Shown here piece after piece: positions 1,005 through 52,854 of a stretch of 64,000 nt of DNA. The DNA is from Ascidia mentula (Eukaryota > Chordata > Ascidiacea > Phlebobranchia > Ascidiidae). The stretch covers positions 4,159,001-4,223,000 of the forward strand of contig OX387205.1 of assembly GCA_947561715.1 (NCBI GenBank), in the 5' to 3' direction. The position numbers and the translations under genes are program-made. Positions within the stretch are counted from its first letter, which is position 1, and each line of letters opens with the position of its first letter. The notes beneath the pieces are model-generated. The model made no database searches and was not told the origin of the DNA. It was given only the letters and a program-made list of their open reading frames with translations.

Positions 1005-2507
1005 AACTGCCAAGGAACCCACAGCCAAGCTTGTAATCTTGCTGGGCCAGACGCGTTCCGGATCAAGCTTTCTCGGGGAGATATTCAACCAGAATCGTGA
1101 GGTTGTATACTTCTACGAACCACTTTATCCGTTTGGTAATTGCCCGCGAACTACAAACAACAGCATGGAAAATGAAGTTCTTGCGTATTTCCACAATGTA
1201 CTTCGATACGACTTTAACGCAACCAGAGAACTGTACAGAAGAGCGTTCGAACAGCCGACAAGAAAGAAGGCAGAGAATGGGTGAGGGCGATGGTAAATAG
1301 TGATTTCTAAATGAGATAAGACGCATTCTGAAAATAAACTCGCTCAAATAAAAACGAAAAAGAGAAAGCTTTTATCATACAATGACGTATCATGCATTAG
1401 TTTCAAAACAAAAATGTCATATATTCCAGATGTCTACGAACAGGAGTGTGCTTTTCTGACTGTGGCAAGTGTGCTGGCTTCATTCATCGCAATAAGAGTG
1501 TGTGTCGTCTAACCAATGCAAACAAGTGTAGCGTCGAGACATTTCTTCAAAACGTGACCAATCTATCAAGGGCAGCTAAGCTGATAGCATTCAAGGTGGG
1601 AGTTTAGCATTGCATTCCTGTAAAATGTTACTACTGTATTTTCCATTTATACATAGCTTTGCTACTTATGCGATATTAGCTGGATTGAAACCCTGCTCAA
1701 AAACCAAGATTATGATATTAAGATTGTTCACTTGGTTCGTGATCCACGAGCTATAGTAAACTCCAAAATTAACTACAAGGACAGCCCAAACACTATTGAA
1801 GACAATAAAGCAAGGTAAGTGTTACCTATTTCATATAACTTTGCTTGATGGCTTCAAACGATTGCACACATACTATTTAGACCTATCAGGTCTTATCACT
1901 GCACCTCACTGACCGTTATTGACTCATGTAGGCCCTAACATTTCATTGATGTAATTTTCTATATGAACCGATCAATCATTTGGAATCGAGTTAATTAAAC
2001 TATCAGCCGGTAATGTATATCACATGGATTGGTTTTTGGTCTGCAGGTAGTGTTTTGTGAAATATCATGTCAAATTTTGTCGTGCATTTTGCTTTCAGCA
2101 AACTTACAACGGTAACATGCCTGCATGTGGAGACGATGACAAAATATGCCGACGAGAATTTAGTTGGCAGCAAACATTACCTTCGGGTAAGACACGAAGA
2201 TTTTTCTCTGCATCCGATAGAAGGCACGGAGCGAATTTACAAATTTGTTGGTCTGCAAATGGCTGAAAACGTCCGCCATTGGCTTTTGGAAGCAACATCG
2301 TCGAAAAACGATAAAAGCCTTTCAAAGAAAAGTATGTTTGGCACCAAGAGAGATTCTTCCGAGGTTGTGGTGAGCTGGAGAAAGCAGATGCTCCTAAAGC
2401 AAATCAAGCTGGTTCAGCAGCATTGTCATTTCTACATGTTGAGCTCCAACTATGCGGAATTCGAAGACGAAGCGTCCGCTCGTAATCTAAATGTAACAAG
2501 TTTTTGA
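1005..2507 (+). CDS. Carbohydrate sulfotransferase unit 1 (C6ST-like), exons 2-5, 5' end unresolved
   Basis: Exons read at 1005-1280, 1430-1595, 1657-1814 and 2099-2507 (stop TGA), with the same phases as the complete units. They encode the PAPS 5'-phosphosulfate loop (QTRSGSSF, preceded by Gly instead of the Ala found in all other copies), the Cys-rich middle, the 3'-phosphate loop (HLVRDPRAIVNS) and the full C-terminus ending NLNVTSF. The usual signal-anchor exon is absent upstream. The frame stays open back to an ATG at 841, giving a 147-codon frame through exon 2, but that N-terminus lacks a convincing membrane anchor and the acceptor TTTTAG at 1001-1004 is intact. The true first exon may be divergent or lie left of the window, or the copy may be 5'-truncated. 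Introns 2, 3 and 4 are 149, 61 and 284 bp. The 3' flank is type A. Confidence 0.8.
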
Positions 2508-2585
2508 TATTATGCACTTGACCAAAGCTGCCAATCACTCGCCCCGACACAAAAGTTCTTTAGTTACTTCCACGCACACTGGAAG

Positions 2586-2834
2586 ATACTTTTACACCGG
2601 ATCACAAAGTTTTTTTCCAAATTTGATCCACATATCAGCCTATGTAACATAGAAATCTGTACGAATTTTAAAGCTACGATTTCGGGTAGTATTTCAACTC
2701 AAATATATATCCAAAAATAACAGGTAGTTGCCCTGTTCACATGTAACCATTAAAATTCGATCAGATTTCAATTCTACATAGACTTATATGTGGATCAGGC
2801 TTGACAAAAACTTTGTGACCCGGTGAAGTAGTAT
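2586..2834 (+). mobile_element. Foldback MITE, full-length copy after unit 1
   Basis: About 249 bp, bounded by long imperfect terminal inverted repeats of roughly 80 bp. The left arm carries ACACCGGATCACAAAG and the right arm its complement CTTTGTGACCCGGTG, followed on both sides by GATCCACATAT or its complement. No coding capacity. The size, arms and AT-rich core fit a non-autonomous DNA transposon. Target-site duplication could not be fixed by eye. Confidence 0.7.
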
Positions 2835-3210
2835 TTTTCAAGCACAATGTTTCATTAGCCCCATCCAGCGGAACTTATAAGTAATAAACATCAACACTAG
2901 GGGCGTAACGGAGCTTACGATAATTTGTTTTATCTTCTCTAACGGGCTTCCATAGAGAAGCGGGTTCCTTTCAGGGGTGGAATGGTAATTTTTATAGTAC
3001 CGGGGCTCTACGGTTTGAAGAACACAGATTTCGTCAGTAAAGAATGGACATCTTGCTTAAGTCACCTGCAGAGCTTCCGAGGTTCCGTTCAATCTCCCCA
3101 GCACTTTACCTCTGCTTCCGAAACAAAAAAATTGGGACATTGCAATTCTGTTTTTACCGCAAATGACTTAACGGGAGGATTTAAATAATATTTTTTTATT
3201 CGTTTTATAG

Positions 3211-3470
3211 GACAATAACATATCCGCTGTCAATTGTTCTTGAATGGGGTTCAATCGCTGTCGCACTGTTTCATCTGTTAGGCCTAACCAGGGTGAATTT
3301 TATGTGAAAAATGAGAAAAAACGGGAGGATTTATTCAACGGTGCTACAACGTACAACCGGTTAAACAATATAATATACTCATTCACGGTTACGTTATCAG
3401 ACAATAACACATCCGCTGTCAATTGTTCTTATGTGGTTAATTGGCTGTCGCACCGTTTCCTCGTTCTTTG
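3211..3470 (+). repeat. Internal direct repeat in the spacer
   Basis: Two copies of about 70 bp, at 3211-3280 and 3400-3470, share GACAATAACAYATCCGCTG, then CAATTGTTCTT and a TCGCACCGTTTC-like stretch. Each copy is preceded by an ACGGGAGGATTTA motif. The same pair recurs in every spacer, except that a deletion joins into it in the unit 3-4 spacer. Function unknown. Confidence 0.65.
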
Positions 3471-3835
3471 ATGGTGATTTGGCAAGCAAGCTGTATCTGG
3501 TTGGAGTTCTCATGTTATCCGTATTATACAGTTTCTTGTTTGTTAAAGTTCGAGTTCAGTTTGGTGAAACGATTGTGGATTACTTTGGACAAGCGACTGC
3601 AAAATTGGGTATTGCGGAACCTTACCAGCTTTAATAAGAACCTATAGGGGGGTTGTATTACCATGAGCTAGTATTTGGATTCAAGCAAAGAATGCTGAAC
3701 TAGTCATTTTAGCCTTGAGGGATCTGTACTAACTAAAATAACCTTGCAGGGTCCACGGACGACAAAGTGTGAGTAACAACAGCTTAGGTTGCCTATTGTT
3801 TAACTGACATCAAGCGCTGGCCTTTTAACTAAAAA

Positions 3836-3946
3836 ACGAAGCGTTTTCTCTTTGCTCTGGTATGCGCTGGAACTGTTCTCAACATAAGTCTCATACATTG
3901 GAGGAATATAGAAAAATATCAGCTTTTACATGATTATAAAGAGTAC
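3836..3946 (+). pseudogene. Degenerate duplicate of sulfotransferase exon 1, upstream of unit 2
   Basis: Read in frame, 37 codons resemble the functional first exon about 760 bp downstream: both share KR..F.L.C.AGT, an aliphatic anchor, His and Met/Ile positions, then KY..LH.Y. The start codon position is ACG instead of ATG, and the donor GC|GTGAGT is replaced by TACGTGTTT. It is therefore best read as a relic exon, or less likely as an exon used with another start. Confidence 0.65.
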
Positions 3947-4598
3947 GTGTTTTATCTATTTACTAGCTAATTACAAATCATAAGCTGGATAAGAAAACCC
4001 TGTTCCTTTGAGTGGGTTTAGGTACTATTACGCCACAAGACTGACGTCTCACATAACTTTACATGGTCTATTTTAAACCTGGGCGCAAGCGTTAGATACG
4101 CATCAAAGTAACATACAAAGATTGTAATTTTTCACAGAAAAAGAAAAGCAATGATATATCGGGCATTTTACAACAGAATCAATTTACGAGTGAGTTAAAG
4201 CACATGCGCGCAAATACTTTGTTTTAATCGTGGTTGAGTTAATACACGTATTGACCAACAAGGTGCGGGGCCTCTCCTTTTATAGGATTTATGTTGCTCA
4301 TTTAAAGTTAACCATAGCGAAGTATATGCAATGCGTGTATTTCACATGATTGGCTTGTACCAAATTGATTGTTTTATGAAGGCGGTTTGGTAAGCGAGCT
4401 TATGTTTCACTGGGTGCTGGCTACTTTGTATGTCCCTATACTCTGACTGCCTTCTTTCCCTTATTTTGTATTGATTGAAGTGAGAAACAGTTTGGTGAGA
4501 CAAGTGCAGCACTTAAGATACCTTGACCAAGCCTTTGAAAAACTGTGCCTTTTGTTGAACTGATAGAATGTACAGGTGTTAAAGTCAAAGTTAAAAAA

Positions 4599-6840: not shown

Positions 6841-7455
6841 GATTACGTAACACCATAAGGTGAATAATTCTCGAAAATATTTTCTTGTACTTTTCGTGTA
6901 AACGCCTCTTCATGAAGTTGTCCAGTTATTGAAAAATTACTAATTTTTCTCTTTATTCTGCAAATAGTTTTTTGTTTTGTTTACCACTTGGTGACAGTAG
7001 TGATCAAAAATATACTCAGTTGAAATTGGTCTCACTAATCTTCGTCATTAGCGTAAACAGGGCTATGGTCCTCCCAAATATTTCAAGATTTTAAAGTTTG
7101 CGTTTTGTGAAGTATCCAATTTGCACCTAATTATTTTCAGCAACCTGTTTAAAAAAAAATCTTTTAATTTCCTTCCTTTATAAGTGGGACATCGCTTTGC
7201 TTCTTTCGTCTTTTTGTTGAATTTAGGCTGGAATCCTTGATAATAATTATATAATTTGATAATAAAGGAATGTGTTGACACACATATTATTTCAGCGCAT
7301 TTGTTGAAAAGTACACCATGGCTAGACATCAGTCATACAAATTAATGAGTTCCATAAAGAAAGATGCACTATTTCTTCGACAGCATTATAGCATGCCGCT
7401 ATAGGCCATTAAAGGCCGAAATGGGGGTCAAACACCTGATCGGGATTCCCCGGCT

Positions 7456-7496
7456 ACGAAGCGACCGCTCGCAATTTAAATGTAACAAGTTTTTGA
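7456..7496 (+). pseudogene. Relic of the sulfotransferase exon-5 tail, after unit 2
   Basis: In frame, 13 codons plus stop match the end of exon 5 of the NLNVTSF class (EATARNLNVTSF against EASARNLNVTSF). It lies about 615 bp downstream of the true stop of unit 2, whose own tail is DLSITSF. Immediately left of it is GGATTCCCCGGCT, which in unit 8 continues into unique DNA. It therefore marks a duplication breakpoint. Confidence 0.8.
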
Positions 7497-7712
7497 GATA
7501 AGAAAATATCTTCATGCCATGTTTTTGCGTATTTATATTGCGTCATGGCTTTTTATACGATGTGAAACGGAGTTTTGAAAGCAAATTCTTTACTCCGTTT
7601 CCTCACGTTATGTTGGACTGCATGAATTAGCATTCGTGATACAGATGACCGATGCTTGTGTTGAGGTTATTTTCTTTTCCGGTGCTCATAAGATCTGCGT
7701 CAACCAGTAGCG

Positions 7713-7806
7713 TTAACCAGTAAAATTCGCTCAGATTTATATTCTACGCAGACTTATATGCGGATCAAGTTTGGCAAAAAAGCTTTCTGACCCGGTGAAG
7801 TAGTAT
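7713..7806 (+). mobile_element. Foldback MITE, right end only, after unit 2
   Basis: Only the right part remains (from about AAAATTCGCTCAGATTT to ACCCGGTGAAGTAGTAT). The left arm and core have been lost. The flanking DNA differs from that at full copies, consistent with deletion during array rearrangement. Confidence 0.65.
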
Positions 7807-8812
7807 TTTTCACGCACACTGTTTCATTAGCCCCATCCAGCGGAACTTATAAGTCATAAACATCAACACTAGGGACGTAACGGAGCTTACGATAATTTGT
7901 AACATCTTCACTAACGGGCTTCCACAAGGAAGCGGGTTCCATTCAGGGGTGGGATGGTAATTTTTATGGTAACGGGGCTCTACGGTATGAAGAACACAGG
8001 TTATATGAGTAAAGAATGGACATCTTGCTTAAGTCACCTGCAGAGCTTCCGGGGTTCCGTTCAATCTCCCCGGCACTTTGCCTCTGCTTCCAACACAAAA
8101 AACTTGGGACATTGGAATTTTGTGTTGACCACAAATGACTTAACGGGAGGCTTTAAATAATATTTTTTTATTCGTTTTATCGGACAATAATTTATCCTCT
8201 GTCAATTGTTCTTGAATGGGGTTCAATGGCTTTCGCCCCGTTTCATCTGTCAACCAGGGTGAATCTTGTGTGAAAATATGACAAATGACTTAACGGGAGG
8301 ATTTATACAACGGCGCTTCAACGCACAACCGTTTAAACAATATAATATGCTCTATTCGCGGTTACGTTACATCAGAAAATAACACATCCGCTGTCAATTG
8401 TTCTTAAATGGGGTTAATTGGCTATCGCACCGTTTCCTCGTTTTGTGAAGGCGATTTGGCAAAGCAAGCTGTATGTGGTTGGAGTCCACATGTTATCCGT
8501 ATTATACAGTTTCTTGTTTGTTAAAATGCGAGACCAGTTTGGTAAAACGATTGTGGACTACTTTGGACTAGCGACTGCAAAATTGGGTATTGCGGAACCT
8601 TACAAGGTTTAATAAGAACGTATTGGGGGTTGTATTACCATGAGCTAGTATTTGGATTCAAGCAAAAAATGCTGAACTAGTCAGTTTAGCCTTGAGGGAT
8701 CTGTACTAACTAAAATAACCTTGCAGGGTCCCCGGACGAAAAAGTTGGAGAAACAACATCTTAGGTTGTTCGTTGTTTAACTGACAGAAAGTGCTGGCCT
8801 TTCAACTAAAAA

Positions 8813-8923
8813 ATTAAGCGTGTTTTCTATGTTGTGATATGCGCTGGAACTATTCTCAACATAAGTCTCATACATTGGAGGATAATAGAAAAATATCAGC
8901 TTTAACAAGATTATAAAGAGTTC
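8813..8923 (+). pseudogene. Degenerate duplicate of exon 1, upstream of unit 3
   Basis: Same relic as before unit 2, but the start position is ATT and a TAA interrupts the frame after EKYQL. This copy could not serve as a coding exon, which supports the relic reading for the set. Confidence 0.65.
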
Positions 8924-9430
8924 GCCTTTTATTTATTTACTAGCTATTTGCAAATCATAAGCTGGATAAGAAAACCCTGTTCATTTAATGGGTTTAGTTA
9001 TTTTTACGCTACAAGACTGACGTCTCACATAACTTTATATGTTCTATTTTAAACCAGGGCGCAAGCGTCAGATTCGCGACAAAGTAACATACAAAGATTG
9101 TAATTTTTTGCAGAAAAAGAAAAGCAATGACATTTCGGGCATTTAAGGATCAATTTACGGGTGAATTAAAAGCAAACGCGCACAAATACCCTGTTTTAAT
9201 TGTGGTTAAGTTAATACATTTATCGACAAACAAGTTGGAAAGCCTCTCTTTTTATAGGATCCCTGATGCTCATTTAACGTCAATCATCACGAAGTATATT
9301 CGATGCGTGTATTGCACATGATTGGTTTGGTGAGACAAGCGCACGTAAGATACCTTGACCAAGCCTTTGATCAACTGTGCCTTTTGTTGAACTGATAGAA
9401 TGTACAGGTGTTAAAGTTAAAGTAAAAAAA

Positions 9431-11865
9431 ATGAAACGTATTTCCTTCGTTCTGATATGCTGTGCTGGAACTTTGTTTCTCAGCAACTTCATGTACAAAA
9501 CGATGATGGAGAAATACAAACGTCTTCATAGTTACTATGCGTGAGTATTTTTCACCCTAACCCAGACGTAAAGCCATATTGTTCCAGTTATAGATTATAC
9601 TTTATACAATTTTATTTGATTAGTAGAAAACATGTTTGTATCAAAAATGCTTTCCCATACGCAACAAAAAAGCCAGAGCCAATATGCTAAACATAGTGGA
9701 GAAAACGTTTCGAACACTGCTGTATTCATCATCAGTGCTGTAAGGTAACTGAGTTGCACAGCACTGCATATTAGCTCTGGCTTTTCTATTCTGTGTAATT
9801 TACTCCATGTTTTTCGCACCTAAATGCTTACCTGATCCAATGACAAGCTCTGTTTCATTTTGATATAGTCAGGCTCACCAAACCGTGCATATTTCTAAAA
9901 GGTTCACAGGCTTCGCAGCCAAGGCATTGCAGCCAAGCTGGATCAGCAACTTTTCCCGACAAGTCGGAGCGAGATCTGAAAAATCAAGCTCCCGGTATTT
10001 CTAATATATGTGCTATTTTTTACGAGCTGCATTCAGAAAATACAAATGTGCTTATCTTTAGAGCGGTGGAATCTAATAATTGACAATACCCTATCACAAA
10101 ACAAATTGTGTAGCTTCTCGTTCGTTGATTAAGACTGGAAACATCACATAACAACGTGTCTAACAACTAAGCAACTGCTTACAAACCTAGTAATTCACTT
10201 CGGTAATGGTCAACACTGACCAATCACCACTTTTCGACTTTTACTTTGCACACATCCCGAGGATGCCAAAAAACAACGTTTTTGAGTCCACTCGCGACCG
10301 ATAAGTTTGTAGTAGGCGAAGGTTAAACACAAAAACATAAAAACAATTGTCCTATTTTTTTTTAGAACTGCCAAAGAACCCACAGCCAAGCTTGTGATCT
10401 TGTTGGCCCAGACGCGTTCCGGATCAAGCTTTCTTGGGGAGATATTCAACCAGAATCGTGAGGTTGCATACTTCTACGAACCACTTTATCCGTTTGGTGA
10501 TTGCCCGCGAACTACAAACAACAGCATGGAAAATGAGGTTCTTGCATATTTCCACAATGTACTTCGATACGACTTCAACGCAATCAGAGAACTGTACAGA
10601 AGAGCGTTCGAACAGCCGACAAGAAAGAAGGCAGAGAATGGGTGAGGGTGATGGTAAATAGTGATTTGTAAATGAGATAAGACGCATACTGAAAATAAAC
10701 TCGCTCAAATAAAAACGAAAAAGAGAAAGCTTTTATCATACAATGACGAATCATGCATTAGTTTCAAAACAAAAATGTCATATATTCCAGATGTCTACGA
10801 ACAGGAGTGTGTTTTTCTGACTGTAGCAAGTGTGCTGGCTTCATTCATCGCAATAAGAGTGTGTGTAGTCCAACCAATGCAAACAAGTGTAGCACCGAGA
10901 CCTTTCTTCAAAATGTGACCAATCTATCAAGGACAGCTAAGCTGATAGCATTCAAGGTAGGTGGGAGATTATAATTGCGTTTCTGAAAAATGTTACTACT
11001 GTATTCTATATGTACATAGGTTTGCTACTTGTGCGATATTAGCTGGATTGAAACCCTTCTCAAAAACCAAGATTATGATATTAAGATTGTTCATTTGGTT
11101 CGTGATCCACGAGCTATAGTAAACTCCAAAATTAACTACAAGGACAACCCAAAAACTATTGAAGACAATAAAGCAAGGTGAGTGCTGTTTGTCATAACTT
11201 TACTTGTTGTCTGCAAACAGATACACACATTCCTTTTGGACCTATCATGTCTTATCACTGCAGCTCAGTAACCGTTATTGACCCAATTGGGCCCTAGCAT
11301 TTCATTGATGTAATTTGTATCTGAACCGATCAATCATTTGGAATCGAGTTAATTAAACTATCAGCCGGTAATGCATATCACATGGATTGGTTTTTGGTCC
11401 GCAGGTAGTGTTTTATGAAATATAACCTCAAAATTTGTCGTGAATTTTGCTTTCAGCAAACTTACAACGGTAACATGCCAGCATGTGGAGACGATGACAA
11501 AATATGCCGACGAGAATTTAGTTGGCAGCAAACATTACCTTCGGGTAAGACACGAAGACTTTTCTCTGCATCCGATAGAAGGCACGGAGCGAATTTACAA
11601 ATTTGTTGGTCTGCAAATTGCTGAAAACGTTCGCCAATGGCTTTTGAAAGCAACATCGTCGAAAAACGACAAAAGCCTTTCAAAGAAAATTATGTTTGGT
11701 ACAAGGAGAGATTCTTCCGAGGTTGTGGTGAGCTGGAGAAAGCAGTTGCTCCTGAAGCAAATCAAGTTGGTTCAGCAGCATTGTCATTCCTACATGTTGA
11801 GCTCCAACTATGCGGAATTCGAAGACGAAGCGTCCGCTCGTAATCTAAATGTAACAAGTTTTTGA
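9431..11865 (+). CDS. Carbohydrate 6-O-sulfotransferase, C6ST-like, unit 3
   Basis: Exons: 9431-9540, 10366-10641, 10791-10956, 11020-11177, 11457-11865; introns 825, 149, 63 and 279 bp; 372 aa, all junctions in phase. Both PAPS loops are intact. Differences from unit 2: anchor exon has Ser18 and Tyr at the HKT position (FMYKT), exon 2 carries GDCPR and an Ile for Thr next to the second sequon (NAI), which removes that glycosylation site, and exon 3 has CSKCAG and SRTAKL. The C-terminus is NLNVTSF with a type A flank. Intron 1 is of the long class, with the 96-bp insertion; intron 2 is of the short class shared with units 1 and 7. Confidence 0.88.
9900..9995. mobile_element. 96-bp insertion in intron 1 of unit 3
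   Basis: Same insert as in units 5, 6 and 8. The right flanking repeat TATTTCTAATATA is intact, but the left one has decayed to TATTTCTAAA. Units 2, 4 and 7 lack it. Confidence 0.6.
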
Positions 11866-16678: not shown

Positions 16679-16719
16679 ACGAAGCGACCGCTCGTAATTT
16701 AAATGTAACAAGTTTTTGA
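16679..16719 (+). pseudogene. Relic of the exon-5 tail, after unit 4
   Basis: Same 41-bp remnant and same GGATTCCCCGGCT junction as after unit 2, with the stop codon still recognisable at 16717-16719. Confidence 0.8.
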
Positions 16720-16908
16720 AATAAGAAAATATCTTCATGCCATGTTTTTGCGTATTTATATTGCGTCATGGCTTTTTATACGATGTGAAACGGAGTTTTG
16801 AAAGCAAATTCTTTACTCCGTTTCCTCACGTTATGTTGGACTGCATGAATTAGCATTCGTGATACAGATGACCGATGCTTGTGTTGAGGTAATTTTCTTT
16901 TTCGATGC

Positions 16909-16950
16909 TCAAGTTTGGCAAAAAAGCTTTCTGACCCGGTGAAGTAGTAT
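16909..16950 (+). mobile_element. Foldback MITE, minimal right-end remnant after unit 4
   Basis: Only the last 42 bp or so survive (CAAGTTTGGC to AGTAGTAT). Compared with units 2 and 5, a further roughly 80 bp has been lost between two GCTCA/GATCAAG-like sequences. Confidence 0.6.
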
Positions 16951-21341: not shown

Positions 21342-21956
21342 GATTACGTAACACCATAAGGTGAATAATTCTCGAAAATATTTTCTTGTACTTTTCGTGT
21401 AAACGCCTCTTCATGAAGTTGTCCAGTGATTGAAAAATTACTAATTTTTCTCTTTATTCTGCAAATAGTTTTTTGTTTTGTTTACCACTTGGTGACAGTA
21501 GTGATCAAAAATATACTCAGTTGAAATTGGTCTCACTAATCTTCGTCATTAGCGTAAACAGGGCTATGGTCCTCCCAAATATTTCAAGATTTCAAAGTTT
21601 GCGTTTTGTGAAGTATCCAATTTGAACCTAATTATTTTCAGCAACCTGTTTAAAAAAAAATCTTTTAATTTCCTTCCTTTATAAGTGGCACATCGCTTTG
21701 CTTCTTTCGTCTTTTTGTTGAATTTAGGCTGGAATCCTTGATAATAATTATATAATTTGATAATAAAGGAATGTGTTGACACACATATTATTTCAGCGCA
21801 TTTGTTGAAAAGTACATCATGGCTAGACATCAGTCATACAAATTAATGAGTTCCATAAAGAAAGATGCACTATTTCTTCGACAGCATTATAGCATGCCGC
21901 TATAGGCCATTAAAGGCCGAAATGGGGGTCAAACACCTGATCGGGATTCCCCGGCT

Positions 21957-21997
21957 ACGAAGCGACCGCTCGTAATTTAAATGTAACAAGTTTTTGA
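21957..21997 (+). pseudogene. Relic of the exon-5 tail, after unit 5
   Basis: Third copy of the 41-bp remnant at the same junction; stop codon at 21995-21997. Confidence 0.8.
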
Positions 21998-22212
21998 GAT
22001 AAGAAAATATCTTCATGCCATGTTTTTGCGTATTTATATTGCGTCATGGCTTTTTATACGATGTGAAACGGAGTTTTGAAAGCAAATTCTTTACTCCGTT
22101 TCCTCACGTTATGTTGGACTGCATGAATTAGCATTCGTGATACAGATGACCGATGCTTGTGTTGAGGTTATTTTCTTTTCCGATGCTCATAAGATCTGCG
22201 TCAACCAGTAGC

Positions 22213-22306
22213 GTTAACCAGTAAAATTCGCTCAGATTTATATTCTACGCAGACTTATATGCGGATCAAGTTTGGCAAAAAAGCTTTCTGACCCGGTGAA
22301 GTAGTA
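22213..22306 (+). mobile_element. Foldback MITE, right end only, after unit 5
   Basis: Same partial copy as after unit 2, with the same left breakpoint, so it was inherited with the block. Confidence 0.65.
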
Positions 22307-23314
22307 TTTTTCACGCACACTGTTTCATTAGCCCCATCCAGCGGAACTTATAAGTCATAAACATCAACACTAGGGACGTAACGGAGCTTACGATAATTTG
22401 TATCATCTTCACTAACGGGCTTCCACAGGGAAGCGGGTTCCATTCAGGGGTGGGATGGTAATTTTTATGGTAACGGGGCTCTACGGTATGAAGAACACAG
22501 GTTATATGAGTAAAGAATGGACATCTTGCTTAAGTCACCTGCAGAGCTTCCGGGGTTCCGTTCAATCTCCCCGGCACTTTGCCTCTGCTTCCAACACAAA
22601 AAACTTGGGACATTGGAATTTTGTGTTGACCACAAATGACTTAACGGGAGGCTTTAAATAATATTTTTTTATTCGTTTTATCGGACAATAATTTATCCTC
22701 TGTCAATTGTTCTTGAATGGGCTTCATTGGCTTTCGCACCGTTTCATCTGTTAACCAGGGTGAATTTTGTGTGAAAATATGAAAAATGACTTAACGGGAG
22801 GATTTATACAACGGCGCTTCAACGCACAACCGTTTAAACAATATAATATACTCTATTCGCGGTTACGTTACATCAGACAATAACGCATCCGCTGTCAATT
22901 GTTCTTAAATGGGGTTAATTGGCTATCGCACCGTTTCCTCGTTTTGTGAAGGCGATTTGGCAAAGCAAGCTGTGTGTGGTTGGAGTCCACACGTTATCCG
23001 TATTATACAGTTTCTTGTTTGTTAAAATGCGAGACCAGTTTGGTAAAACGATTGTGGACTACTTTGGACTAGCGACTGCAAAATTGGGTATTGCGGAACC
23101 TTACAAGGTTTAATAAGAAGGTATTGGGGGTTGTATTACCATGAGCTACTATTTGGATTCAAGCAAAAAATGCTGAACTAGTCAGTTTAGCCTTGAGGGA
23201 TCTGTACTAACTAAAATAACCTTGCAGGGTTCAGGGACGAAAAAGTTGGAGAAACAAAAGCTTCAGGTTGTTCGTTGTTTAACTGGCAGAAAGTGCTGGC
23301 CTTTCAACTAAAAA

Positions 23315-23425
23315 ATTAAGCGTGTTTTCTATGTTGTGATATGCGCGTGGACTATTCTCAACATAAGTCCCATACATTGGATGATAATAGAAAAATATCA
23401 GCTTTTACAAGATTATAAAGAGTAC
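23315..23425 (+). pseudogene. Degenerate duplicate of exon 1, upstream of unit 6
   Basis: ATT-type relic, open for 37 codons, differing from the copy before unit 5 at a few positions (NISPIHW). Confidence 0.65.
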
Positions 23426-23932
23426 GCCTTTTATTTATTTACTAGCTATTTGCAAATCATAAGCTGGATAAGAAAACCCTGTTCATTTAATGGGTTTAGT
23501 TATTTTTACGCTACAAGACTGACGTCTCACATAACTTTATATGTTCTATTTTAAACCAGGGCGCAAGCGTCAGATTCGCGACAAAGTAACATACAAAGAT
23601 TGTAATTTTTTGCAGAAAAAGAAAAGCAATGACATTTCGGGCATTTAAGGATCAATTTACGGGTGAATTAAAAGCAAACGCGCACAAACACCCTGTTTTA
23701 ATTGTGGTTAAGTTAATACATTTATCGACAAACAAGTTGGGAAGCCTCTCTTTTTATAGGATCCCTGATGCTCATTTAACGCCAATCATCACGAAGTATA
23801 TTCGATGCGTGTATTGCACATGATTGGTTTGGTGAGACAAGCGCACGTAAGATACCTTGACCAAGCCTTTGATCAACTGTGCCTTTTGTTGAACTGATAG
23901 AATGTACAGGTGTTAAAGTTAAAGTAAAAAAA

Positions 23933-26696
23933 ATGAAACGTATTTCCTTCGTTCTGATATGCTGTGCTGGAACTTTGTTTCTCTGCAACTTCATGCACAA
24001 AACGATGATGGAGAAATACAAACGTCTTCATAGTTACTATGCGTGAGTATTTTTCACCCTAACCCAGACGTAAAGCCATATTGTTCCAGTTATAGATTAT
24101 ACTTTATACAATTTTATTTGATTAGTAGAAACCATGTTTGTATCAAAAATGCTTTCCCATACGCAACAAAAAAGCCAGAGCCAATATGCTAAACATAGTG
24201 GAGAAAACGTTTCGAACACTGCTGTATTCATCATCAGTGCTGTAAGGTAACTGAGTTGCACAGCACTGCATATTAGCTCTGGCTTTTCTATTCTGTGTAA
24301 TTTACTTCATGTTTTTCGCACCTAAATGCTTACCTGATCCAATGACAAGCTCTGTTTCATTTTGATATAGTCAGGCTTACCAAACCGTGCATATTTCTAA
24401 TATAAGGTTCACAGGCTTCGCAGCCAAGGCATTGCAGCCAAGCTGGATCAGCAACTTTTCCCGACAAGTCGGAGCGAGATCTGAAAAATCAAGCTCCCGG
24501 TATTTCTAATATATGTGCTATTTTTTACGAGCTGCATCCAGAAAATACAAATGTGCTTATCTTTAGAGCGGTGGAATCTAATAATTGACAATACCAACAT
24601 CACAAAACAAATTGTGTAGCTTCTCGTTCGTTGATTAAGACTGGAAACATCACATAACAACGCGTCTAACAACTAAGCAACTGCTTACAAACCTAGTAAT
24701 TCACTTCGGTAATGGTCAACACTGACCAATCACCACTATTCGACTTTTACTTTGCACACATCCCGAGGATGCCAAAAAACAACGTTTTTGAGTCCACTCG
24801 CGACCGATAGGTTTGTAGTAGGCGAAGGTTAAACACAAAAACATAAAAACAATTGTCCTGTTTTTTTTAGAACTGCCAAAGAACCCACAGCCAAGCTTGT
24901 GATCTTGCTGGCTCAGACGCGTTCCGGATCAAGCTTTCTCGGGGAGATATTCAACCAGAATCGCGAGGTTGCATACTTCTACGAACCACTTTATCCGTTT
25001 GGTGATTGCCCGCGAACTACAAACAACAGCATGGAAAATGAAGTTCTTGCGTATTTCCACAATGTACTTCGATACGACTTTAACGCAACCAGAGAACTGT
25101 ACAGAAGAGCGTTCGAACAGCCGACAAAAAAGAAGGCGGAGAATGGGTGAGGCCGATGGTAAATAATGATTTGTAAATGTGACACCATACATACTGAGGT
25201 AAATATTCGCTCTCATTTCTGAACCAAGTGCAACTTATTAACTATTTGTATGGCGAATATTAGTATTATCTTGGAAAAAGATGAAGCTTTTATCATATAA
25301 CAAGGTATTTTATGTCGTGTTTTGTCGCATGATGAAACAACACAGGGACATAATAACACATCTTCTGTGAAAATCAGCTATCGCGATTTTGGACCTTTTC
25401 GGCCAAACAAGTTTCTATTTTAAGACGAATCATTTATTACTTCAAAAACGAACGTCATATATTCCAGATGTCTACGAACAGGAGTGTGTTTTTCTAACTG
25501 TGGCAAGTGTGCTGGCTTCATTCATCGCAATAAGAGTGTGTGTAGTCCAACTAATTCAAACAAGTGTAGCACCGAGACCTTTCTTCAAAACGTGACCAAT
25601 CTATCGAGGGCAGCTAAGCTGATAGCATTCAAGGTGGGAGTTTAGCATTGCATTCCTGTAAAATGTTACTACTGTATTTTGTATTTGTACATAGGTTTGC
25701 TACTTATGCGATATCAGCTGGATTGAAACCCTTCTCAAAAACCAAGACTATGATATTAAGATTGTTCATTTGGTTCGTGATCCACGAGCTATAATAAACT
25801 CCAAAATTAACTACAAGGACAACCCAAAAACTATTGAAGACAATAAAGCAAGGTGTGTGTCACCTTTTTTCTCATATCGTTAGAATTGTGTTGTTATAAA
25901 AATCAAACCGTAATGTTTAAAATGGCAAAAATGTAACTCCATACAATTTAGAATTTGGTCTTTACTTCGCATGGTTTTACATGTTACATATGTTTACGTG
26001 TTGTGTACTGTTCAAAGTAGTATAACTATGTATGATAAATTTAGGTGCAGGATACTTAAGCGTGTAACACTTCGAATAAGAATGCCAGTTCTTGGAATTT
26101 GCTGATTAGCATTTTATTATTGCAATTCGCATGTGAACAAACCGCTTCGTTTTAAACTTAAGCTAATTAAATATGGCGGAATCATCAGCTGGTGCTAAGT
26201 GCAACACTTTATTGGTTTGGCTTACATTCTGCCGGGTTGCATTTGGTTAAAATTCATGTCAACAGTTTTTGTGAATTTTGCTTTCAGCAAACTTACCACA
26301 GTAACATGTCAGCATGTGGAGACGATGACAAAATATGCCGACGAGAATTTAGTTGGCAGCAAACATTACCTTCGGGTAAGACATGAAGATTTTTCTCTGC
26401 ATCCAATAGAAAGCACGGAGCGAATTTACAAATTTGTTGGTCTTCAAATGGCTGAAAACGTCCGCCATTGGCTCTTGAAAGCAACATCGTCGAAAAACGA
26501 CAAAAGCCTTTCAAAGAAAAGTATGTTTGGCACCAAGAGAGATTCTTCCGAGGTTGTAGTGAGCTGGAGAAAGCAGTTGCTCCTGAAGCAAATCAAGTTG
26601 GTTCAGCAGCATTGTCATTCCTACATGTTGAGCTCCAACTATGCGGAATTTGAAGACGAAGCGTCCGCTCGTAATCTAAATGTTACAAGTTTTTGA
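23933..26696 (+). CDS. Carbohydrate 6-O-sulfotransferase, C6ST-like, unit 6
   Basis: Exons: 23933-24042, 24871-25146, 25468-25633, 25695-25852, 26288-26696; introns 828, 321, 61 and 435 bp; 372 aa with intact PAPS loops. Exons 2-4 are almost identical to unit 8, 9258 bp downstream, including the PTKKKAENG end of exon 2. Exon 5 instead has the type A tail NLNVTSF and a type A flank, matching unit 7. This copy is therefore a clear chimera whose switch lies in or near intron 4 to exon 5. Confidence 0.88.
24405..24500. mobile_element. 96-bp insertion in intron 1 of unit 6
   Basis: Identical in position and flanking TATTTCTAATATA repeats to the insert in unit 5. Confidence 0.65.
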
Positions 26697-26774
26697 TATT
26701 ATGCGCTTGACCAAAGCTGCTAATCACTAGCCCCGACACAAAAGTTCTTTAGTTGCTTCCACGCACACTGGAAG

Positions 26775-27022
26775 ATACTATTACACCGGGTCGCAAAGTT
26801 TTTTCCAAACTTAATCCACATATCAGCCTATGTAACATCGATATCTGTGCGAATTTTAAAGCTACGATTTCGGGTAGTATTTCAACTCAAATATATAACC
26901 AAAAATAACAGGTAGTTGCCCTGTTCACATGTAACCATTAAAATTCGATCAGATTTGAATTCTACATAGACTTATATGTGGATCAGGCTTGACAAAAACT
27001 TTGTGACCCGGTGAAGTAGTAT
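26775..27022 (+). mobile_element. Foldback MITE, full-length copy after unit 6
   Basis: Same element and offset as after units 1 and 3; arms ACACCGGGTCGCAAAG and CTTTGTGACCCGGTG. Confidence 0.7.
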
Positions 27023-28020
27023 TTTTCACGCACAATGTTTCATTAGCCCTATCCAGCGGAACTTATAAGTAATAAACATCAACACTAAAGGCGTAACGGA
27101 GCTCACGATAATTTGTATCATCTTCACAACCGGGCTTTCACAGGGAAACGGGTTCCATTCAGGGGAGGGATGGTAATTTTTTATGGTGCCGAGACGCTAC
27201 GGTATGAATAACACAGATTACATGAGTAAAGAATGGACATCTTGCTTAAGTCACCTGCAGAGTTTCCGGAGTTCCGCTCAATCTCCCCAGAACTTTACCT
27301 CTGCTTCCGAAACAAAAAAATTGGGACATTGCAATTCTCATGTTTTTACCACAAATGACTTAACGGGAGGATTTAAATAATATTTTTTTATTCGTTTTAT
27401 CGGACAATAACATATCCGCTGTCAATTGCTCTTGAATGGGGTTCAATGGCTTTCGCACCGTTTCATCTGTTAACCAGGGTGAATTTTGTATGAAAATATC
27501 ACAAATGACTTAACGGGAGGATTTATTCAACGGCGCTTTAACACACAACCGTTTAAACAATATAATATACTCCATTCGCGGTTACGTTATCAGACAATAA
27601 CACATCCGCTGTCAATTGTTCTTGTGTGGTTCATTGGCTGTCGCACCGTTTCCTCGTTCTAAGATAACCATTTGGCAAACAAGCTCTATCTGGTTGGAGT
27701 CCACATGTTATCCGTATTATACAGTTTCTTGTTTGTTAAAGTTCGAGTTCAGTTTGGTGAAACCATTGTGGACTATAGCGACTGCAAAATTGGGTATTGC
27801 GGAACCTTACCAGGTTTAATAAGAACCTATAGGGGGGTTGTATTACCATGAGTTAGTATTTGGATTCAAGCAAAGAATGCTGAACTAGTCATTTTAGCCT
27901 TGAGGGATCTGTACTAACTAAAATAACCTTGCAGGGTCCACGGAGGACAAAGTTTGAGTAACAACAGCTTAGGTTGCCTATTGTTTAACTGACATCAAGC
28001 GCTGGCTTTTTTACTAAAAA

Positions 28021-28131
28021 ACGAAGCGTTTTTTCTTTGCTCTGGTATGCTCTGGAACTGTTCTCAACATAAGTCTTATACATTGGAGGAAAATAGAAAA
28101 ATATCAGCTTTTACATAATTATAAAGAGTAC
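28021..28131 (+). pseudogene. Degenerate duplicate of exon 1, upstream of unit 7
   Basis: ACG-type relic with CSGT in place of CAGT; frame open for 37 codons, no ATG, no donor. Confidence 0.65.
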
Positions 28132-28769
28132 GTGTTTTATTTATTTGCTAGCTAATTGCAAATCAAAAGCTGGATAAGAAAAACCTGTTCCTTTGAGTGG
28201 GTTTAGGTACTATTACGCCACAAGACTGACGTCTCACATAACTTTACATGGTCTATTTTAAACCAGGGCGCAAGCGTCAGATACGCATCAAAGTGACACA
28301 CAAAGATTGTAATTTTTTACAGAAAAAGAAAAGCAATGATATATCGGGCATTTTACAACAGGATCAATTTACGAGTGAGTTAAAGCACATGCGCGCAAAT
28401 ACTGTGTTTTAATCGTGGTTGAGTTAATACATTTATTGACCAACAAGGTGCGGGGCCTCTCCTTTTATAGGATTTCTGTTGCTCATTTAAACTTAATCAT
28501 AGCGAAGTATATGCAATGCGTGTATTGCACATGATTGGCTTGTACCAAATTGATTGTTTTATGAAGGCGGTTTGGTAAGCGAGCTTATGTGGCACTGGGT
28601 GCTGGCTACTTTGCATCTGACTGCCTTCTTTCCCTTATTTTCTATTGATTGAAGTGAGAAACAGTTTGGTGAGACAAGCGTACGTAAGATACCTTGACCA
28701 AGCCTTTGATCAACTGTGCCTTTTGTTGAACTGATAGAATGTACAGGTGTTAAAGTTAAAGTTAGGAAA

Positions 28770-31121
28770 ATGAAACGTATTTCCTTCGTTCTGTTATGCT
28801 GTGCTGGAACTTTGTTTCTCAGCAACTTCATGCACAAAACGATGATGGAGAAATACAAACGTCTTCATAGTTACTATGCGTGAGTATTTTTCACCCTAAC
28901 CCAGACGTAAAGCCATATTGTTCCAGTTATAGATTATACTTTATACAATTTTATTTGATTAGTAGAAACCATGTTTCTATCAGAAATGCTTTTCCATACG
29001 CAACAGAAAAGCCATAGCCAATATGCTAAGCATTGTAGAGAAAACCCTTCGAACACTGTTGTGCTCTGTTTTATTTTAATAAGGCCTGCGTATTTCTAAT
29101 ATATGTGCTATTTTTTACCAGCTGTATCTCAGAAAATACAAATGTGCATATTTTTAGATCGGTGGACTCAAATAATTGACAATACCCCAACACATAACAA
29201 ATTGTGTAGCTTCTAGTTTGTTGCTTAAGGCTGGCAACATCACATAACAACGCGTCAAACAACTAAGCAACTGCTTACAAACCTAGGAATTAACTTCGGT
29301 AATGGTCAACACAGACCAATTAAGACTTTTCGATTTTTTTAATTTGCACACATTCCGAGGATGCCAAAAAACAACGTTTTTGAGTCCACTCGCGACCGAT
29401 AAGTTTGTAGTAGGCGAAGGTTAAACACAAAAACATAAAAACAATTGTCCTGTTTTTTTTAGAACTGCCAAAGAACCCACAGCCAAGCTTGTGATCTTGT
29501 TGGCCCAGACGCGTTCCGGGTCAAGCTTTCTTGGGGAGATATTCAACCAGAATCGTGAGGTTGCATACTTCTACGAACCACTTTATCCGTTTGGTGATTG
29601 CCCGCGAACTACAAACAACAGCATGGAAAATGAGGTTCTTGCGTATTTCCACAATGTACTTCGATACGACTTTAACGCAACCAAAGAACTGTACAGAAGA
29701 GCGTTCGAACAGCCGACAAGAAAGAAGGTGGAGAATGGGTGAGGGCGATGGTAAATAATGATTTGTAAATGAGATAAGACGCATACTGAAAATACACTCG
29801 CTCATATAAAAACGAAAAAGAGAAAGCTTTTATCATACAATGACGAATCGTGCATTAGTTTCAAAACAGAAATGTCTAATATTCCAGATGTCTACGAACA
29901 GGAGTGTGTTTTTCTGACTGTGGCAAGTGTGCTGGCTTCATTCATCGCAATAAGAGTGTGTGTCGTCCAACTAATTCAAACAAGTGTAGCGCCGAGACAT
30001 TTCTTCAAAATGTGACCAATCTATCAAGGGCAGCTAAGCTGATAGCATTCAAGGTAGGTGGGAGATTATAATTGCGTTTCTGAAAAATGTTACTACTGTA
30101 TTCTATATGTACATAGGTTTGCTACTTATGCGATATTAGCTGGATTGAAACCCTTCTCAAAAACCAAGACTATGATATTAAGATTGTTCATTTGGTTCGT
30201 GATCCACGAGCCATAGTAAACTCCAAAATTAACTACAAGGACAACCCAAACACTATTGAAGACAATAAAGCAAGGTTAGTGTCACCTTTTTTCTCATATC
30301 GTTAGAATTGTGTTGTTATAAAAATCAAATCGTAATGTGTAAAATGGCAAAAATTTAACTCCATACAATTTAGAATTTGGTCTTTACTTCCCATGGTTTT
30401 ACATGTTACATATATTTACGTGTTGTGTACTGTTCAAAGTAGTATAACTTTGGAATGATAAATTTAGGTGCAGGATACTTGAGCGTGTAACACTTCGAAT
30501 AAGAATGACAGTTCCGGGAAATTGCTGATTAGCATTTTATTATTTTGCAATTCGCATGTGAACAAACCGCTTCGTTTTAAACTTAAGCTAATTAAATATG
30601 GCGGAATCATCAGCTGGTGCTAAGTGAAACACTTAATTGGTTCGGCTTACATTCTGCCGGGTTGTATTTGGTTAAAATTCATGTCAACAGTTTTTGTGAA
30701 TTTTGCTTTCAGCAAACTTACCACAGTAACATGTCAGCATGTGGAGACGATGACAAAATATGCTGACGAGAATTTAGTTGGCAGCAAACATTACCTTCGG
30801 GTAAGACACGAAGATTTTTCTCTGCATCCGATAGAAGGCACGGAGCGAATTTACAAATTTGTTGGTCTGCAAATGGCTGAAAACGTTCGCCAATGGCTCT
30901 TGAAAGCAACATCGTCGAAAAACGACAAAAGCCTTTCAAAGAAAAGTATGTTTGGCACCAAGAGAGATTCTTCCGAGGTTGTAGTGAGCTGGAGAAAGCA
31001 GTTGCTCCTGAAGCAAATCAAGTTGGTTCAGCAGCATTGTCATTCCTACATGTTGAGCTCCAACTATGCGGAATTTGAAGACGAAGCGTCCGCTCGTAAT
31101 CTAAATGTTACAAGTTTTTGA
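28770..31121 (+). CDS. Carbohydrate 6-O-sulfotransferase, C6ST-like, unit 7
   Basis: Exons: 28770-28879, 29463-29738, 29888-30053, 30117-30274, 30713-31121; introns 583, 149, 63 and 438 bp; 372 aa. The anchor exon has VLLCC where the others have VLICC, exon 2 has NATKELY and KKVENG, and exon 3 has RPTNSNKCSAE. Exon 4 ends at GTTAGT, a weaker donor than in the other units. Short introns 1 and 2 combine with the long intron 4 and a type A tail, a combination found in no other copy. Confidence 0.87.
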
Positions 31122-35954: not shown

Positions 35955-38900
35955 GATTACGTGATACCATGAGGTGAATAAATCTCGAAAATATTTTCTT
36001 GTTTTTTTGTACTTTTCGTGTAAACGCCTTTTCCTGAAGTTGTCCAGTTATTGTAAAATTACTAATTTCTCTTTTTATTCTGCAAATAGTTTTTTGTTTT
36101 GTTTACCACTTGGTGACAGTAGTGATTAAAAATATACTCAGTTGAAATTGGTCTCACTAATCTTCGTCATTGGCGTACACAGGGCTATGGTCCTCTCAAA
36201 TATTTCAAGATTTCAAGATTCAAAATTGTGAAATATCCAATTTGCACCTAATTATTTTCTGCTACGTGTTGAAAAATAAAATCTTCTAATTTCCTTCCTT
36301 TTTACGTGGGACATCGCTTTGCTTCTTTCGTAAATTTGTTGAATTTAGGCTGGAATCCTTGATAATAATTATATAATTTGATGATAAAGGTATGTGTTGA
36401 CACACATATTATTTCAGCGCATGTGTAGAAAAGTACATCATGGCTGGACATCAGACATACAAATTAATGAGTTCCATAAAGGAAGATGCACCACTACGAC
36501 AGCATTATAACATGACGCTATAGACAATTCAAAGCCAAAATGGGGGTCAACATCAGTGGGGGATTAAGAATCTGTTTATCCTAAGGCCCCTCCCTTGTGG
36601 GCCTAATTATTTATTCAGCACTGGATGTCACAATTTACAAAAAAACACCTGATCGGGATTCCCCGGCTCACGATAACTTGGATTCGAGTCCAGGTTGGAT
36701 AAATATCTGGTTGACGATTCTGATACTTCATCAAAGAGTTATTTCTACTACAGATATCGAGTGGCAGATACCCAAATCGCTGTTTATTAAGTACTATAAC
36801 ATATTGTAACAATATCGTGTAGTTGGGCGAAACAGTTAAAACTGATCTATGGTGCGAAATGGCTACACTGTACACCCCACAACTTTACCCGTCACGGTCT
36901 TCTATATGATGGTTTCAGGACATGTTTAGCAACAAACGTACATCTGTATTGTGAAGTAAGCTGCTTTTTGAACTGCATGACTCATTCACTTTTTACGTGG
37001 GTTTTAAACGCCGTGCACGAAGTTAATGACCTTCGAGCATTAACGACGGAATCGATTAGCGAACGCTTTGACGCACGACCGCTCCAACTGTTTATTCGCG
37101 GTTGCGTTCCAGAACTTATCGCCAAATATTGCGTTGCTTCTCCATTGAGAGTAAAATGCGATCTTCTGCGAAAATATTGCAACATTCACTGCCTTCAATT
37201 CAACTCTATGCTTACATACGGTCTTACAAGAAGAACGGCCTAAAATTTCGGCCCTTTAAAATCTATTAACAAAGCTAAATAACAACGTCATGTATTCGAC
37301 CACTAATATTTTGCCAAAACAGCTGATTATTATTGAGGTCGCAACCAAGGAGAAAATGGGGCGTCATGGAAAATTATGACTTCACCGAATTTTACTGCTC
37401 TAAATTATTATTGGCTTGGAGATAGCGGCAGCGCTTATGCTTTTGTTCACAAGTCGATGATTACGCATAAATTTTCCAGTGTTCAGAATTGTCCCACTTC
37501 AAAATTTCTCCCAGACAACGTAAATTGGCGGAATACTAAATAGATCAAAGACAATTCTTTTTTGATATTGTTATGGTGGATATTGTGTTGTTGTCCACTA
37601 CCATGTATGCTATTGCGTTCAAGTACAGTTGTTATAGTCTCTTGAGAACTTACCTCGTAAAATTCTGACTAAAAACTTCACTAATCCCATTGACGTGGAG
37701 ACGCACAAAGTGTTTCATGGAAAACCATGTCGTCACCTTACAAGGATTTAATCGTAAACCCACGGGCTATAGAAAATATCAAAGTAGTGTTAATTTGATT
37801 TTCATTGGTACTGAACTTACAGTACATACTGTTTTGTTTAAGCCAGTCTGTCCGGTTTATGTGTACATTACGTACACTGTGACACAAACCTTAATCAGAT
37901 TTATCCATCTCAAAGAGCAGTACTCAGTCTCCCGCTGATTGTATCGCCATGTTTATGTTATGGTGTTTGGAGGGGAAGACATTAACTTGCTTCTTGCTCA
38001 CTGTGTTACCATGCAGTTTGCGTAAGAAAGAGGCCTTTGAGTGGTAACAGAAGAGTTAGCGGCATTACCTCATTATCGTCATTGGCGCCATGTCAAACCT
38101 ACTTCTGGCACAAGACAGATGAACCCGAAGCATTTTACGTCCAATACATGGCTCACGGGTACGTTTCTAGCGCTAGTCATTGTCTTCAATGCGCGACGGT
38201 AATCACAGTGCAAGGTTCAGCACAACTGGTACATTGTTTCGTCCCATCTGATCGGGTCACGCCAATTAAACAGGACGTCGATCACAAGAGGTCGAAAATA
38301 GGTTCTGACGACAGGGTGAGCTGCATTGACTTGTTGTTCCGGCACCTCAAGGCCAACTTTGGCCTCTCCGGGTGGTAATGGCGCTAATTGGCTTTGTGTA
38401 ATTCTGCATGTACGTCATTTGGGTCTTAAGGCGTGAGGTGCTTTCGCGTGCGCCGGCGCACGATATGATCAAGCGGTGTGCGTGTGAATGGCGTTTTTGA
38501 CAACACGCAATCACCGCAGCTAATCACAGTGGCCGTGGTACATGCAGTAGAAGGTTGAAGGTGACAATCAAAGTGATGAGACCGCTGAGGTGGCGTTGGC
38601 GCTTGCCTTCTTGCAGCTGAAAACCTCTTGTTTTGCACGTGTGTACTTGACAAACCAAGCGTGCTTTGTGCACGGCATTTACAGTGCGAATTGTCAAAAT
38701 GCCATGGCCTTTTCCCTATCTACAACAATAAAACCTTGAGAATGAGGTTCACAGACGAGCCAATAGCATTAAGTAACCTTGACCACGACCTATGGCAAAC
38801 TTATTGCTTTGAAAACGCAAATCCCCTTATTCCATCTATGACACGATACCATGTACAAAAAAAATTTGGCCAACAGGTCAACAACCGCTGTATTTATTGT

Positions 38901-52082: not shown

Positions 52083-52698
52083 AGTTGGCGAAAATTAGAA
52101 AATCAAGAGCGACATCACGCGGTAAACATTTTACGCTTAAATAAGCTGCCCTGTGTGGTACATTTGGAAAGAGTGGCATAAATAATCAATATTACAATAT
52201 TACACATTTGGAATATCAATATTCATGCAAATCTACACATCTACATATATCGCAAATTTGAACCATGGATGTAAAGTCACATTCAAACATTTTGTTTGTA
52301 AAGTTTTGGAAAATGTTTGTTGCTGAAGCTGCCAGGCATATAATGTTCATCAAACTCACAAGATCCTCTGACAAAAAATGACTTGGTCGACGTTTCGGTC
52401 GTTATGCAATGGACCTTCACCAGGACAAGGTATGTAAATGCAAACACCATAGTAAAGATAATAAAGCGCGAAAAATGCGTAAGGGGGCGGGGAAAGAAGA
52501 AAGACAAAAGAATTAAAAAGAATGTTACCCTTCGAGTAAACACTTTCCTAAATTCGAGTTAAACACATTCATAACCGAGACTATCGTTATAATCGAGGGT
52601 AGTTAAAGTAATAATCCAGTTTGAATGTTAATTTTTGAATTGACCAAACCAGAATTGAAACTTTAACTACCTTTTGACGAATCAGTTGCATTTGCGCA

Positions 52699-52854
52699 GG
52701 TTGGGCATGCAACCACCTCTGTATATTATTTCTGCTGAGGTTGGGCATGCAACCACCTCTGTATATTATTTCTGCTGAGGTTGGGCAGGCAACCACCTCT
52801 GTATATTATTTCTGCTGAGGTTGGGCAGGCAACGACCTCTGTATATTATTTCTG
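52699..52854. repeat. 40-bp minisatellite, four copies
   Basis: Four head-to-tail copies of a 40-bp unit, starting at TTGGGCATGC 52701, 52741, 52781 and 52821. Each contains the imperfect palindrome GAGGTTGGGC..GCAACCACCTC. The last two copies have GGCAGGC for GGCATGC, and the last has CAACGACC. Confidence 0.9.

Follow-up and report, generated by a model that had tools for sequence, protein, structure and literature searches.

The window, i.e. the whole 64,000-nucleotide stretch of Ascidia mentula DNA that was analysed (G000:C73:4159001-4223000, in a genome assembly of 196 Mb and 79 contigs), carries most of an array of related genes. A hand-joined exon translation from the array matched the Pfam domains PF00685 and PF13469 with 50.9 and 47 bits (cut-offs 22 and 27, respectively), and many of its homologues are named carbohydrate sulfotransferase 1, 4, 5 or 6 by their sources. 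The nearest named homologues were two Clavelina lepadiformis proteins with 44% and 43% identity, and a Phallusia mammillata protein showed 35%. When one Clavelina protein (P0001) was compared with the genome, the best match by E-value had 49% identity, and short conserved pieces reached 72%. At E 0.001, no match to a solved structure was obtained. By their domains, the array genes are predicted to belong to the carbohydrate sulfotransferase family (CHST1/4/5/6-like).

The neighbourhood was scanned over 144 kb around the window, with negative coordinates denoting positions to the left of it. Eleven copies of exon 3 at 89% identity or more (of 26 genome matches) and ten copies of the last exon at 90% or more (of 28) were located here, giving an array of 11 units whose left limit lies about 17 kb beyond the window. 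The preliminary description had counted eight units; the three additional ones (-3, -2 and -1) are all left of the window. The units are named below by the end of the stop codon in window coordinates, and they are typed as A or B according to the last-exon tail and the 3' flank.

Unit -3, type A, stop-codon end at -14257
Unit -2, type B, stop-codon end at -9924
Unit -1, truncated, last exon not found
Unit 1, type A, stop-codon end at 2507
Unit 2, type B, stop-codon end at 6840
Unit 3, type A, stop-codon end at 11865
Unit 4, type B, stop-codon end at 16064
Unit 5, type B, stop-codon end at 21341
Unit 6, type A, stop-codon end at 26696
Unit 7, type A, stop-codon end at 31121
Unit 8, type B, stop-codon end at 35954, right end of the array

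The 5' halves of the genes divide differently. An A-gene 5' half is present in units -3 and 1 only, and the nine other units share a different one. Compared with the others before exon 3 (alignment columns 3200-4000), units -3 and 1 show 45-47% identity, too low for an alignment; in the exon-1 region their identity is 66-70%. The shared 5' half has two classes, one in units -2, 2 and 4 and one in units -1, 3, 5, 6 and 8, with unit 7 being mixed; over the same columns, identity is 87.6-88.8% between these classes and at least 98.5% within them.

Clusters of related sulfotransferase exons were also seen at G000:C73:12949054-12964941 and C72:15050281-15060457, whose last exons share 35-43% identity with the last exon of unit 1. 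The first of these is likely to be a second tandem array, because three of the exons there follow one another at regular intervals of 2113 bases and score almost equally. Elsewhere in the window, a 40-bp tandem repeat of 3.9 copies (98% matching) occupies 52698-52854.

Downstream of most B-type genes, the 3' flank ends in GGATTCCCCGGCT and runs directly into a second copy of the tail of an A-type last exon, which we refer to as the relic. The copies in the window, identified by sequence comparison, and the closest extant match are as follows.

7456-7496, plus strand, relic after unit 2 (B), copy of the A-type last-exon tail
16679-16719, plus strand, relic after unit 4 (B)
21957-21997, plus strand, relic after unit 5 (B)
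2467-2507, plus strand, A-type last-exon tail of unit 1, closest extant match to the relic, with an identical tail in units -3 and 3

The motif GGATTCCCCGGCT is found at 7443, 16666, 21944 and 36656 in the window and once more in the 144 kb scanned, and in four of these five copies (units -2, 2, 4 and 5) it is followed directly by ACGAAGCGACCGCTCG(C/T)AATTTAAATGTAACAAGTTTTTGA. The preliminary description had reported the joining of a B flank to a second 41-bp copy of the A-type exon tail after units 2, 4 and 5, and the sequences, E-values and shuffled controls agree with this; the total is four, however, as another relic follows unit -2 to the left of the window, with its GGATTCCCCGGCT at -9321 (G000:C73:4149679). 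Relics are thus present after four of the five B units, the fifth (unit 8) being the array end, and after none of the five A units. Both the left and the right join are identical in all four copies, with unit 4 carrying a deletion further to the right.

The A-type origin of the relic was apparent from several comparisons. Its identity to the ends of A-type exons is 89-93% across 44 bp (E 2e-9 to 3e-12), and to those of B type it is 82% (E 1e-5); a manual count of the five tail sites diagnostic for A and B gave the A base at all five in all four relics. Among the pairs computed, relics differ from the unit 1 A tail at 2-3 positions, from unit 6 at 4 and from the unit 8 B tail at 7-8. The relic of unit 2 scored 35 against the A tail, and when the 34-kb array was shuffled base by base 20 times, the highest score was 14. 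Chance similarity is ruled out by the E-values and shuffle scores, and a B-type tail by the absence of the B base from all five diagnostic sites. A genome-wide DNA search with 7400-7520 listed seven matches, all in the array (the four relics and three A tails), so that the relic was found at no unrelated locus among the matches listed, an occurrence that the preliminary description had named as refuting; this number is a lower bound, as it lacks two further A tails, those of unit 6 and unit 7, and a weak relic elsewhere is possible. By eye, no obvious splice acceptor precedes the relic, and it is taken to be a scar in 3' intergenic DNA, putatively without present function.

On the left side of the joint, the B-type flank of the relic units can be compared with that of unit 8.

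6841-7455, plus strand, B-type 3' flank of unit 2, ending in GGATTCCCCGGCT at the junction
35955-36668, plus strand, B-type 3' flank of unit 8, with single-copy DNA from 36669
36551-36642, plus strand, 92-bp stretch present in unit 8 and missing from the four relic units, ending 13 bp left of GGATTCCCCGGCT

At unit 8, GGATTCCCCGGCT is followed by CACGATAACTTGG and no tail, so this partner of the joint continues unbroken into single-copy DNA. The interval 36551-36900 has a single match genome-wide, which bears out the earlier observation that the flank enters unique DNA at about 36668. The 92-bp stretch, which stops 13 bp short of the GGATTCC motif and hence 26 bp left of the point at which the relic units switch to the tail, could be either an addition in unit 8 or a deletion at the joint. 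The relic is supported as the boundary of the repeating unit of the array, because it occurs after B flanks only, the A-gene 5' half is confined to units -3 and 1, and single-copy DNA lies beyond unit 8.

To the right of the relic, a 214-bp segment (X) separates the tail from the remnant of a miniature inverted-repeat element (MITE), which is complete in the A-type flanks.

7500-7713, plus strand, segment X of unit 2, 214 bp between relic and MITE remnant, found in the four relic units only
16723-16911, plus strand, segment X of unit 4, cut short by a deletion that also takes the beginning of the MITE remnant
22001-22214, plus strand, segment X of unit 5
7714-7811, plus strand, right-hand MITE remnant of unit 2, continuous with A-type intergenic DNA
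7812-7820, plus strand, right target-site duplication ACGCACACT of unit 2, the same as the left copy of the A flanks
2508-2571, plus strand, A-type 3' flank before the MITE in unit 1, not found in relic units
2581-2839, plus strand, complete MITE in the A flank of unit 1, 259 bp, with inverted repeats
2572-2580 and 2840-2848, target duplications of the unit 1 MITE, 9 bp, 7 of 9 matching

The deletion in unit 4 removes about 76 bp at 16911, equivalent to 7689-7764. A genome search with 2508-2860 gave 89 matches on both strands from 40 scored of 501 candidates, with copy ends mostly near query positions 73 and 330-333. Fourteen high-scoring copies sampled from elsewhere align along the whole element of the A flank, and 13 of them are bordered by perfect 9-bp target duplications (the remaining one by 4/9), compared with none of 182 mismatched flank pairs reaching 8/9 as a control. 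With many copies, defined ends, inverted repeats and 9-bp target duplications, the element is a MITE; in its long inverted ends and the length of its duplications it is reminiscent of Mutator-like elements. A further copy lies in the window at 58312-58572, and many others are spread across contigs.

The MITE gives the joint a direction. It is complete in all five A flanks, each with the left target copy ACGCACACT and a right copy matching at 7/9 (units -3 and 1) or 8/9 (units 3, 6 and 7), and its left end is missing from all four relic units, in which the right target copy is ACGCACACT. The whole insertion therefore predates the relic units, and the A flank with the complete MITE is shown to be the older state. 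As BLAST similarity between a relic unit and the A flank begins at 7714/2744, it follows that the continuous sequence on the A side starts at about 2744 and not at the exon-5 tail. Since relic units derive from it by a break inside the MITE, X has displaced the A flank there and is not the ancestral sequence at that place.

Segment X itself (7500-7713) has no counterpart in the A flank, with homology resuming only at 2744 inside the MITE. Its local score against the A flank (2511-2743) was 21, compared with a mean of 21.4 and a maximum of 37 for 200 shuffles, and no homology to either the A or the B 3' flank was detectable; X as a diverged flank of either type is therefore not supported. Nor is X supported as a genome repeat, as it was found at four places in the assembly, all of them relic units, and in the 144-kb region outside these units nothing was better than E 0.56. 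The 41-44 bp of tail can thus be traced to an A-type tail, and the 214 bp of X match no source in the assembly. X also holds a perfect 10-bp inverted repeat, GAAACGGAGT/ACTCCGTTTC, at 7564-7601.

The order across the joint is therefore the B 3' flank (to CCCCGGCT), 41-44 bp of A-like tail, the 214-bp X, the middle of the MITE of an A flank and A-homologous intergenic DNA. We consider that the relic is probably part of a composite, non-homologous duplication joint which set up the repeating unit of the sulfotransferase array, and we give this reading a probability of roughly 0.6. A tandem duplication could have extended from a point within the A flank through to where the B flank ends, and if serial end joining, or template switching during replication, closed it, the tail and X would have been left as an inserted fragment. 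The joint would subsequently have been copied to four places through unequal homologous exchange and gene conversion, which may also have given rise to the hybrids among the units (3, 6 and 7). If the duplication ran from the A flank through the B gene to the B flank, the A-gene 5' half is expected outside the repeated unit, and its presence in units -3 and 1 only agrees with this.

Serial end joining or template switching is suggested by the patchwork order and by analogy with other junctions: occasional templated insertions are reported at tandem-duplication junctions in C. elegans helq-1 mutants (PMC8654963), and long templated insertions with some blunt ends are described (PMC5120786). At the first join, inspected by eye, GGCT/C of the B flank and G/ACGAAG of the A tail give GGCT/ACGAAG with 0 bp shared, and a 4-bp ACGA microhomology would need the loss of an extra base. 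With no clear microhomology here and no source for X, the mechanism is not readable from the joint.

The divergence of the parts also bears on this reading, the pairs that would date from the founding showing distances of the same order, and the relic units smaller ones. Relics differ from the unit 1 A tail by a K2P of 0.05-0.08 (over 41 bp only, range 0-0.17) and from the unit 6 tail by 0.105; the B flank of relic units differs from that of unit 8 by 0.074-0.080 (range 0.052-0.105 for units 2 and 8), and the A intergenic DNA from the post-relic intergenic DNA by 0.112-0.116 (range 0.097-0.133 for units 1 and 2). Among the relic-unit pairs compared, K2P was 0.003-0.018. These distances fit a joint that would be old and would have spread afterwards. 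A single founding date common to the tail, B-flank and intergenic pairs is only roughly supported, because the ranges of the intergenic and B-flank pairs barely overlap and A-type intergenic copies, among the pairs computed, differ from one another by up to 0.062 (unit 1 and unit 6).

Gene conversion has blurred the units, which counts against this reading. Unit 3 (6841-11865) is, at informative sites, mostly A-like from late exon 3 onward with one non-A patch, unit 7 (26697-31121) is A-like in a patch behind exon 3 and B-like from there until the last exon, and unit 6 (21342-26696) is B-like until the last exon. At the last diagnostic sites, in the tail, units 6 and 7 are A-type, so that the switch falls late in the last exon; units 3, 6 and 7 are hybrids with an A-type tail and flank. 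Units 1 and 8 are mosaics too. The preliminary description had placed the two founders at these ends, but unit 1 is not supported as the left founder, since the array extends left to about -17 kb and unit 1 copies unit -3 from about +214 (K2P 0.004), and unit 8, the other proposed founder, combines intergenic DNA 99.7% identical to that of unit 7 with a 5' half that groups with units -1, 3, 5 and 6. A model with two founders is nonetheless plausible, and the founding reconstruction is correct in outline, with the joint being composite.

A serious rival is that the tail and X together are the 3' end of a lost third paralogue (type C), with an A-like last exon and its own 3' flank, which two rearrangements would have trapped between a B and an A flank. 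Its weight comes from the edge of the relic, as similarity to A stops at the stop codon, where the A and B genes also diverge: their last exons are 94-96% identical, yet similarity is lost past the stop codon. Such an edge is not favoured by chance alone under the composite joint, where X is a putative inserted fragment, and the resemblance of X to neither the A nor the B flank would be expected of a third gene. However, this explanation requires two independent joins, the search of the assembly gave no further X, and last exons outside the array are, among the matches listed, at most 43% identical, so we regard it as possible but tentative. If true, the array joint would be the only record of a vanished family member, with the MITE target duplication fixing the order of events.

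Another, compatible explanation is that part of the arrangement is an assembly artefact, in which units -3 to -1 and units 1 to 3 would represent two haplotypes of a single region placed in succession, inflating the number of relics and units. An 18.9-kb block is indeed repeated between -24762 and +10692 of the window (G000:C73:4134238-4169692), and its copies (-24762 to -5898, and from -5888 on) meet directly within an intron of the truncated unit -1, which breaks at -5898 with the 5' flank restarting at -5888. Ascidians are highly heterozygous, and the block copies differ in their flank by a K2P of 0.05-0.06, at the gene start by 0.10 and in the rest of the array part by 0.004. The block could be a true duplication that was recently homogenised, or else two haplotypes in tandem. 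The unequal divergence of flank and array suits the former, the 144-kb region contains no N, and the relics of units 2, 4 and 5 are independent of this block, making an artefact unlikely as the explanation.

The proposal in the preliminary description, that one clean join of a B flank to an A exon-5 tail founded the repeating unit, is right about the B-side boundary but is not supported as to a single join (X is not A flank, and homology begins in the middle of the MITE); although the orientation and position of the tail agree with it, the order in which the A flank reappears further downstream is correct, and a simple join with later replacement of the A flank, lost to the middle of the MITE as X was gained in the relic lineage, would look alike, a further independent event is required, in which about 236 bp were exchanged for 214 bp from the stop codon on, with X lacking a known source, and the proposal is quite improbable.

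We found no literature treating templated insertion, tandem duplication, a breakpoint junction and a gene family together, and none on a tandem array of carbohydrate sulfotransferases in ascidians, judged by titles and the starts of abstracts. The array genes share their Pfam domains with carbohydrate sulfotransferases, and their nearest named relatives, from Clavelina, are just 44% identical. SULT1A sulfotransferases, another group, are cytosolic. They lie on hominoid low-copy repeats, unlike the head-to-tail array described here, and growth by intra-chromosomal duplication is described with assembly error weighed as an alternative (PMC555591); both cases represent growth of a gene family by intra-chromosomal duplication.

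The process is the ordinary evolution of clustered gene families and involves no new mechanism. The joint is a well-preserved worked case of the founding of an array followed by homogenisation, and it carries its own polarity marker in the MITE and its target duplications, making the order of insertion, joining and spreading testable in relatives. It is like the junctions of polymerase-theta end joining or FoSTeS/MMBIR in being a non-homologous joint that contains inserted fragments. It differs from these junctions in its age, with a divergence of several percent, and in its multiplication through later exchange; moreover, X could be traced to no source, and no clear microhomology is seen at the first join.
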